This document shows, one piece after another, positions 15,391 through 32,640 of a stretch of 64,000 bases of DNA. Under the pieces are notes generated by a model. That model saw only the letters and a list, made by a program, of their open reading frames with translations. It searched no databases and had not been told where the DNA came from. Numbering within the stretch: position 1 is the first letter of the stretch; every line of letters begins with the position of its first letter. The stretch covers positions 1 to 64,000 of the forward strand of contig JACPYM010000104.1 in the NCBI GenBank assembly GCA_016196035.1, read 5' to 3'. This DNA comes from Acidobacteriota bacterium. Lineage in GTDB: Bacteria; Acidobacteriota; Blastocatellia; RBC074. The translations under genes and the position numbers were made by a program.

Positions 15391-15519
15391 GTCAGTGGTC
15401 AGTGGTCAGTGGTTAGTGGTCAGTAATCCGTTAATAGACGGTAGCAGCTTTTGAATCTGCAATCAGTGATCACTAACCACTGATCACTGATCACTGACCA
15501 CTGACCACTGACCGCTGAC
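15391..15519. repeat. Inverted arrays of heptamers (GTCAGTG / CACTGAC)
   Basis: Positions 15391-15425 hold five tandem 7-base units of the GTCAGTG type (one GTTAGTG, one GTCAGTA). After a 45-base spacer, 15471-15519 hold seven units of the complementary type (CACTGAC, with CACTGAT, CACTAAC and CGCTGAC variants). A transcript would fold into a long hairpin. The array begins directly at the metalloprotease stop codon. No gene lies inside. The rest of the spacer up to pspA shows nothing else I can name. Confidence 0.85.
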
Positions 15520-15710
15520 CACCTTTTTCGCCCGCGCCTTTTGCCTTCAATCTGCTACTGCTATACTCGCGCACGCTGCGGCTGGAAAATTCGGCGCAGT
15601 GATGAAACATCACCCAATCAAACCGCGTATCATCAAAAGTTGTTGAACCCAGCGGCGGTGCGCTTCGCAAAAACAGCGCCGCCGTACCCGCGAGAAAAGG
15701 AAAACACAGC

Positions 15711-16489: not shown

Positions 16490-16586
16490 GGCAGTCGGCA
16501 GCCGGCACTCAGTAGCTGGAAGACAGTTACCGCAATGCAATCAGCTACTGACTACTGACTACTGACTACTGACTACCGACTACCGA
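16490..16586. repeat. Inverted arrays of heptamers (GGCAGTC / CTACTGA)
   Basis: Positions 16490-16516 hold about four degenerate 7-base units (GGCAGTC, GGCAGCC, GGCACTC, AGTAGCT). The right array, 16545-16586, holds six units: four CTACTGA then two CTACCGA. It ends five bases before the ATG of the next gene, so the array takes the place where a ribosome site should be. Confidence 0.8.
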
Positions 16587-16591
16587 CAAAG

Positions 16592-30450: not shown

Positions 30451-30485
30451 GAATGGTGAATGATGAATTGAGAATGGTGAATGTA
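30451..30485. repeat. Left heptamer array of four-helix-bundle cassette
   Basis: Five tandem 7-base units of the GAATGNN type (GAATGGT, GAATGAT, GAATTGA, GAATGGT, GAATGTA) end exactly at the ATG of the four-helix-bundle gene. The complementary array lies just after its stop codon at 30856-30890. Confidence 0.85.
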
Positions 30486-30848
30486 ATGGCCGAGAAGAAA
30501 GACAATCCGGTGCTCGACAAATCGTTCAAGTTCGCGTTGCGCATTGTCAAACTCTACAAATACCTGACGGATGAAAAACGCGAGTTCGTCTTGAGCAAGT
30601 TTCTGTTGACCGCCGGCACGTTGATTGGCGCGCGGGTTGAAACATCGCAAGCAGCGGTTGATCGCAACGCGTTTTCTTCCGAATTGAACATGGCTTTGCA
30701 GAAGGCCAAAGAGAGCGAGTATTGGCTCAAACTTCTACTGGCGGGTGAATTTCTCACGCAAGCCGAATATGACTCCATCTTTGCTGACGCTGATGAACTG
30801 GTCAGTTTGTTGACGAAGATTGTCAAAACTTCGCGGGGGCAGTCCTAA
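30486..30848 (+). CDS. Four-helix-bundle protein (S23/IVP family)
   Basis: This is a 120-residue, all-helical protein of the S23/23S rRNA intervening-sequence family. Typical features are FKFALRIVKLYKYL near the start, the later GTLIGARVETSQAA, LNMALQKAKESEYWLKLL and a C-terminal helix DADELVSLLTKIVKTSRGQ. Related proteins are encoded inside 23S rRNA intervening sequences and include Avd of diversity-generating retroelements; their activity is mostly unproven beyond nucleic-acid binding. The ATG at 30486 directly follows five heptamers, leaving no ribosome site; the in-frame GTG at 30477 or codons in the repeats could also start translation. The whole gene lies in an inverted-repeat cassette. 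Confidence 0.85.
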   Translation: MAEKKDNPVLDKSFKFALRIVKLYKYLTDEKREFVLSKFLLTAGTLIGARVETSQAAVDRNAFSSELNMALQKAKESEYWLKLLLAGEFLTQAEYDSIFADADELVSLLTKIVKTSRGQS

Positions 30849-30855
30849 ATCCGCC

Positions 30856-30890
30856 TTCATTCCCAATTCTTCATTCATCATTCTCAATTC
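30856..30890. repeat. Right heptamer array of four-helix-bundle cassette
   Basis: Five tandem 7-base units ending in ATTC (TTCATTC, CCAATTC, TTCATTC, ATCATTC, TCAATTC) are the inverted form of the left array's GAATNNN units. They start 7 bases after the stop codon and end 35 bases before the argH-like start. Confidence 0.85.
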
Positions 30891-32433: not shown

Positions 32434-32499
32434 GTTCAGAGTTCACGCTTCAGCGTGTAAGTGGCGGCCCGCTGCCACGCTGAAGCGTGAACTCTGAAC
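32434..32499. repeat. REPIN-like inverted repeat, family D
   Basis: The arms 32434-32457 and 32476-32499 are perfect 24-base inverted copies around an 18-base spacer. Each arm is a head GTTCAGAGTT and the hairpin CACGCTTCAGCGTG. A further half-copy follows directly (direct repeat of about 18 bases up to 32522). The element lies between the convergent argH-like and kinase genes. Confidence 0.85.
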
Positions 32500-32640
32500 A
32501 TTTGCGTGAACTCTGAACATTTGTTCCCTTTCCAGCCCTGAATTATTTACGGAAAGAAACGTTTTTGGCATAGCGAATTCAGGGCCATGTGCTGTCTGGC
32601 CAATGCTCATGACTGACGCTCTTTGGTTTGGAGACCGGAC

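Follow-up and report, generated by a model that had tools for sequence, protein, structure and literature searches.

An intergenic S23 gene bounded by inverted heptamer arrays in an Acidobacteriota genome points to a widespread small mobile element

The 64,000-nucleotide stretch of Acidobacteriota DNA analysed here, referred to as the window, contains a unit made up of a gene of the S23 (23S_rRNA_IVP, four-helix-bundle protein) family and two arrays of tandem heptamers, one on each side (Table 1). The upstream heptamers read GAATGGT, GAATGAT, GAATTGA, GAATGGT, and GAATGTA, the last of them adjoining the start codon, and the downstream heptamers, which begin after a gap of 7 nt, read TTCATTC, CCAATTC, TTCATTC, ATCATTC, and TCAATTC. 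An earlier note on this DNA had described five GAATNNN units ending at the ATG and five inverted units starting 7 bases past the stop, and on re-reading, the coordinates, the counts, and the fit to the gene proved exact. The note's identification of an S23/IVP-like gene was confirmed by profile searches, in which the protein scored 58.5 bits against PF05635 (cut-off 33.8) and 62.1 bits against TIGR02436 (cut-off 24); the family profile also matches PDB entries 2gsc, the XCC0516 protein of Xanthomonas campestris, and 2rld, both of them solved members of the family. The neighbours are an outer-membrane gene followed by a hairpin resembling an intrinsic terminator on one side and argH on the other, in agreement with the intergenic position that the note had given, and a creatininase-family gene is also found nearby. 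Directly past argH, at 32485-32523, there is a perfect 19-bp tandem duplication, GCGTGAACTCTGAACATTT.

Table 1. Coordinates of heptamer-array features in the window
Feature	Position	Strand	Remarks
Upstream arm, five GAATNNN heptamers	30451-30485	+	Read directly; last heptamer adjoins start codon
S23 (23S_rRNA_IVP, four-helix-bundle) protein gene, 120 aa	30486-30848	+	PF05635 and TIGR02436 matches; ATG at 30486, stop ends at 30848
Downstream arm, five NNNATTC heptamers, inverted complement of upstream arm	30856-30890	+	Read directly
Gene-less hairpin: TCAGTGG array, ~50 nt spacer, inverted array	15391-15531		Putative non-autonomous relative
Gene-less hairpin: degenerate left arm, CTACTGA right arm	16490-16587		RNA fold z -3.8

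The complementarity score between the two arms was 18.5, a value reached by none of 4000 pairs of window positions at equal spacing (maximum, 16.5), and the lag-7 score of the upstream arm, 11, was reached by only 9 of 4000 random 48-mers from the window. Because the arm-arm score exceeds all controls and the lag-7 score is so rarely reached, the array structure is not due to chance. When the unit was folded as RNA, the arms formed a stem enclosing the entire ORF (-153.6 kcal/mol, z -3.2), and the start region of the S23 ORF lay within this stem.

In the host genome (9.6 Mb), PF05635 has 11 matches, of which nine are full length. Heptamer-like arrays were present on both sides of all nine, each with a unit of its own: GATGCTA, GGGGCTA, CAGACCT, GTAGTCA, GTTCTGA, TTGATAG, ATTTGAG (the weakest), CAGGAGT, and GAATNNN. 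Among 160 S23 loci from many phyla, a tandem array of 7-9 nt was found on at least one side of 145 (16 of 139 control positions) and on both sides of 100 (3 of 139), meeting the earlier note's suggestion that such arrays be sought around S23 homologues at other places. The 15 loci at which we detected no array count against the explanation that we favour below. PIN-domain genes, which also form a small family scattered through these genomes, had no arrays in their flanks (0/52). Across the phylum, lag-7 self-similarity was seen in 58 of 104 S23 flanks versus 7 of 104 distant control stretches, and the lags that stood out at S23 flanks were 7 and its multiples, together with a minority of 8- and 9-mers. 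In a set of 80 relatives of one S23 protein, drawn from many phyla and biased to one subfamily by the use of that single protein as the query, arrays were present in 110 of 158 flanks versus 3 of 142 controls. All 12 S23 genes on named plasmids had 7-mer arrays on both sides; in one (L359), the arms are direct rather than inverted. Nine S23 genes are bounded by 8-mers (L020, L029, L041, L048, L053, L055, L059, L060, and L063) and one by 9-mers (L018). Unit length, too, may depend on the S23 subfamily.

In 89 of the 96 elements with both arms, the downstream arm fitted the reverse complement of the upstream arm better than its direct form, with a unit similarity of 0.80 between the upstream unit and the reverse-complemented downstream unit, 0.45 for the direct comparison, and 0.53 across loci. 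In the best-sampled S23 subfamily, the unit AGTGGNY keeps a fixed polarity relative to the gene in 54 of 55 cases, across phyla. Heptamer similarity rises with protein identity (Mantel test, Spearman 0.40, 0/1000 permutations), and this coupling holds when only pairs from different phyla are considered (Spearman 0.36, 0/1000 permutations). As nine different units occur within a single genome, the host does not determine the heptamer; judged from these sequence comparisons, the unit goes with the S23 protein rather than with the host, even across phyla. This coupling lends support to the earlier proposal that the protein may bind its own repeats. The GAATNNN unit itself is a property of the window's subfamily only: relatives of the window protein carry AAT-containing units (GAATGNN, GAGAATT, GATAATG, and TAATTAN), and GAAT arms recur in the sister species, but other subfamilies carry other 7-mers and, in some cases, 8- or 9-mers. 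Likewise, the equal unit number, five and five in the window, does not hold in general, as arm length ranges between 3 and over 30 units and varies between near-identical copies. We also considered whether the two arms form one perfect palindrome kept by template switching, and rejected this idea; the order of unit variants is unmatched between arms (50 elements, mean p 0.58). What is conserved therefore seems to be the unit itself, as would be expected if the protein reads the unit.

The earlier note had suggested looking for empty sites in close relatives, and we found three clean cases on cyanobacterial plasmids. On a conjugative plasmid backbone (locus 1), the site is filled in Trichormus variabilis plasmid C and in a Scytonema plasmid and empty in plasmids of Nostoc linckia, Aulosira, and Tolypothrix, which are ~97.5% identical to Trichormus plasmid C around the site. 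The same two flanking words are 432 nt apart in Trichormus and 418 nt apart in Scytonema versus 4 nt (GTAA) in the empty plasmids, a difference of 428 nt from Trichormus; the 14 nt by which the Scytonema element is shorter correspond to exactly two heptamers. GTAA is found on both sides of the insert, a possible 4-nt target duplication seen at this one site only; elsewhere, a short spacer has been replaced. A Nostoc C052 plasmid holds a truncated remnant that retains the left arm and the beginning of the S23 gene. An Aulosira element at an unrelated site has 416 bp in common with the Trichormus element, comprising the arms and the gene and nothing outside them, and its site is empty in three relatives, with 13-16 nt instead. 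At the Calothrix S23 site, three relatives have 10-11 nt in place of the element. Exactly the arms plus the gene have thus been gained or lost at otherwise near-identical plasmid sites. Two Calothrix plasmids with the same S23 gene share a larger duplicated segment, so this pair gives no evidence of transposition.

Two operon junctions in the host family add to these cases. At pyrR-pyrB, G005 has a bare junction of 27 nt and the host has an S23 unit, while differing gene-less heptamer hairpins are found in G006/G009 and in G008. The hisD-hisC junction is bare in G002, G003, and G005; the host and G009 have related S23 units there, and G006 has a gene-less hairpin. A different kind of element, a long near-perfect palindromic insert with a gap of ~350 nt that is not heptameric, lies in the pyrR-pyrB junction of G004 (L287), a genome without S23. 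The window copy upstream of argH also has a counterpart in the sister species (protein 61% identical), where an extra gene-less hairpin lies beside it, and there is no S23 gene upstream of argH in G005 or G002, which belong to the next genus. The window copy may have entered upstream of argH in an ancestor of its genus. Both checks proposed in the earlier note, for arrays around homologues elsewhere and for empty sites in close relatives, thus gave the outcome expected from its idea of a mobile or structured-RNA cassette, which it had put forward while stating that mobility itself is not visible; that idea is supported.

We also found heptamer hairpins that contain no gene, two of them in the window (Table 1), and these look like non-autonomous relatives of the S23 unit. 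The unit of the second equals that of another S23 element in the same genome (L004). A census of 464 kb of the host (the window and contigs C15 and C91) turned up 31 strong arrays at lag 7, whereas other lags gave hardly any; under a stricter definition of an array, 21 of 38, about half, were in inverted pairs. Array density rose with S23 copy number across 13 sampled genomes (Spearman 0.70, p 0.008, with phylogeny left uncorrected), reaching 90 per Mb in genomes with S23; six genomes without S23 had two lag-7 arrays in ~545 kb, and one of these was a homopolymer run. About two-thirds of the gene-less host arrays resemble the heptamer of one of the host's S23 elements. The remaining third (e.g., CAATCCG) matches no S23 element found there and counts against our preferred explanation. 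The host's own S23 heptamers fitted its gene-less arrays more closely than did sets taken from other genomes in the phylum (0/1000) or shuffled heptamers (7/500). Over sets sampled from all other elements, among which the AGTGG family dominates, they had no such advantage (119/1000). These comparisons give partial support to a cognate-heptamer link between gene-less arrays and the host's S23 elements. In one heptamer hairpin (GTTGGCG / GCTAACC; G000 contig C91:10336-10773, within L075), two REP-like palindromes are nested in the loop, which suggests that other small elements in turn land in heptamer hairpins.

Parts of this arrangement are familiar. The 23S rRNA intervening sequences, such as that of Coxiella burnetii (PMC4990558), have an S23 ORF of ~120 aa in a unit of ~430 nt whose complementary termini form a stem, and they are regarded as selfish; the Coxiella sequence is an RNase III substrate, and the S23 protein of Xanthomonas has been reported to be a homopentamer of four-helix bundles (PMC4990558). 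The window unit likewise has an S23 ORF between complementary, stem-forming termini, but it lies between the outer-membrane gene and argH rather than inside a 23S rRNA helix, and two conserved 23S motifs were absent from all S23 loci retrieved. Units of the window type further differ in being intergenic or inside operons, in having termini of tandem heptamers that follow the S23 subfamily, and in having gene-less copies dispersed in the genome. The REP/BIME repeats of RAYT transposases (PMC2817692) provide an analogy rather than a membership: there too, a gene lies between two inverted repeat copies, repeat and protein coevolve, gene-less copies are many, and repeat density goes with the presence of the protein. 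In contrast, S23 has no HUH/Y1 transposase domain, PF05635 being the sole match in the window unit, and its arms are tandem 7-mers instead of single palindromes with a GTRG head. Avd of the diversity-generating retroelements is a homologous four-helix-bundle protein, but no reverse transcriptase with TR/VR adjoins the window element, the nearest reverse transcriptase match lying 48 kb away on the contig, and several genomes with many S23 copies have none. Nor does the unit resemble a classical IS or transposon, as it encodes no transposase and its termini are not fixed, differing from one element to the next and in how many units they contain.

Heptamer repeats as such are also known, the cyanobacterial STRR and the trnL-intron heptamers among them. 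Dispersed heptamers have been described in Xanthomonas (GGGAATC) and Nostoc (GGGGA[C/T]T) (PMC4692102) and in Beggiatoaceae (TAACTGA) (PMC4679880); they too are intergenic tandem 7-mers, often in inverted pairs in Xanthomonas, whereas in units of the window type, the array pair encloses an S23 gene and the heptamer tracks the protein. The main text of neither paper mentions S23, and our literature searches, whose scope left out most subscription journals and preprints, found no paper joining S23 genes to heptamer arms. Intervening sequences with S23 in rRNA, REP/RAYT systems, and heptamer repeats have each been described already; the link between S23 and heptamers is, as far as we found, new. 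Together, the data point to a widespread kind of selfish element that, to the same extent, has gone unrecognised until now.

In our view, the unit at 30451-30890 is probably a single copy of a small mobile element that occurs widely, in which an S23 gene sits between inverted tandem arrays of a 7-nt unit peculiar to its subfamily. Its S23 pentamer would bind the element's own heptamers, the chemistry would be supplied in trans, and the window copy would date from an ancestor of the genus. By analogy with the systems above, it is best read as an intergenic, IVS-like or REP/RAYT-like element whose pentamer would recognise its own arms. The S23 protein, relatives of which are homopentamers, would bind its heptamers either in hairpin RNA or in single-stranded DNA. 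Binding would help the protein's own unit to spread, and likewise gene-less arrays with the same heptamer, with cutting and joining performed by a host enzyme or another enzyme in trans. In transcripts, the arms would fold into a long stem around the ORF, and RNase III may cut the insert out, as it does in 23S rRNA intervening sequences; paired arms acting as an RNase III substrate would explain the tolerance of such units between operon genes. To our knowledge, S23 proteins have no known catalytic domain, a point against this explanation, since the enzyme for movement is then missing from the unit. Two further points against it are that the possible GTAA duplication was seen at a single site and that the two arms do not match in the order of their unit variants.

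Several other explanations share some of this evidence. The REP-associated tyrosine transposases (RAYT, Y1_Tnp) could mobilise the arrays, with S23 as a passenger or helper: S23 copy number follows Y1_Tnp number beyond genome size (partial correlation 0.52, permutation 0.0006), every one of the 19 genomes that have at least four S23 copies also has Y1_Tnp, and the AGTGG/GTAG heptamers include the GT(A/G)G head found in the REPs of RAYT systems (PMC2817692), possibly by coincidence. Against this, many heptamer families (e.g., GAATNNN and CAGACCT) lack GTRG; G004 has 10 Y1_Tnp genes, no S23, and almost no arrays; and 17 of 20 Y1_Tnp genes have no heptamer arrays and carry REP palindromes of their own, as at L312, L315, and L321 (e.g., GGCCCTGAAGGGGCCGC). 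Ownership of the heptamers by RAYT genes is thus not supported, and we regard this explanation as unlikely; because RAYT genes carry their own REPs despite covarying with S23, they are at most a supplier of chemistry for S23 units. It is quite unlikely, in our estimation, that the hairpins are independent repeats into which S23 genes merely insert, the arrays being target sites outside the unit. Gene-less hairpins do far outnumber S23 genes, and Nostoc ATCC 53789 has a GGGAACA hairpin without S23 at the place where Nostoc C052 has an S23 gene with a GGGAACA unit. However, the empty sites of locus 1, the Calothrix locus, and the Aulosira locus hold no array, two elements at unrelated sites have exactly the arms and gene in common, and both the fixed polarity and the covariation of unit and protein across phyla tie the arms to the gene.

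A non-mobile structured-RNA or regulatory module, in which S23 autoregulates through the hairpin and arrays arise locally by slippage, would accommodate the strong RNA fold, the start region lying in the stem, and the differences of whole heptamers between near-identical copies. The clean presence and absence at near-identical sites and the multiple copies scattered within housekeeping and cas operons make it very unlikely as a full account, and regulation by S23 could coexist with mobility. We give little credence to retro-mobility by a reverse transcriptase acting in trans, in the way that the PF05635 homologue Avd (PMC10053308) assists diversity-generating retroelements: RVT_1 was not detectable in 9 of the 19 genomes with four or more S23 copies, which excludes reverse transcriptase as an obligate partner, and S23 and reverse transcriptase numbers showed no correlation beyond genome size.

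The reading of the unit as a mobile S23 element can be extended, tentatively and with rather less confidence, to S23 proteins as a new class of mobile element without a known recombinase. The pentamer would read a 7-nt unit and spread any array of that unit, with or without the gene; the repeats of Xanthomonas, Nostoc, and Beggiatoaceae and other heptamer repeats would share this source; and the intervening sequences of 23S rRNA would represent copies inserted into rRNA. If the reading is true, thousands of annotations as "four helix bundle protein" or S23 would denote the coding part of a selfish unit, heptamer repeats so far described piecemeal would have a single explanation, and an origin for rRNA intervening sequences would be suggested. 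The tight link of a short repeat to a protein without a known catalytic domain raises the question of how the unit moves, and the pairs of filled and empty sites make movement testable in culturable cyanobacteria.

S23 genes in cas loci have been reported as CRISPR-associated, with 18 counted (PMC3936711). In an Anabaena sp. 90 plasmid (L351) and a Pseudanabaena galeata plasmid (L359), S23 with heptamer arms lies between cas6 and cas4, and in a related plasmid, these two genes are just 23 nt apart. Given the arms and this short spacing, the cas6-S23-cas4 cases are better read as insertions, and caution is warranted in taking S23 genes in cas or other operons for functional partners. Heptamer arrays are also read into neighbouring proteins, as the HisC N-terminus TINDQLSTIN at L006 and as C-terminal TSDLRP repeats of an FtsW/RodA-like protein at L003, so that insertions alter protein ends.
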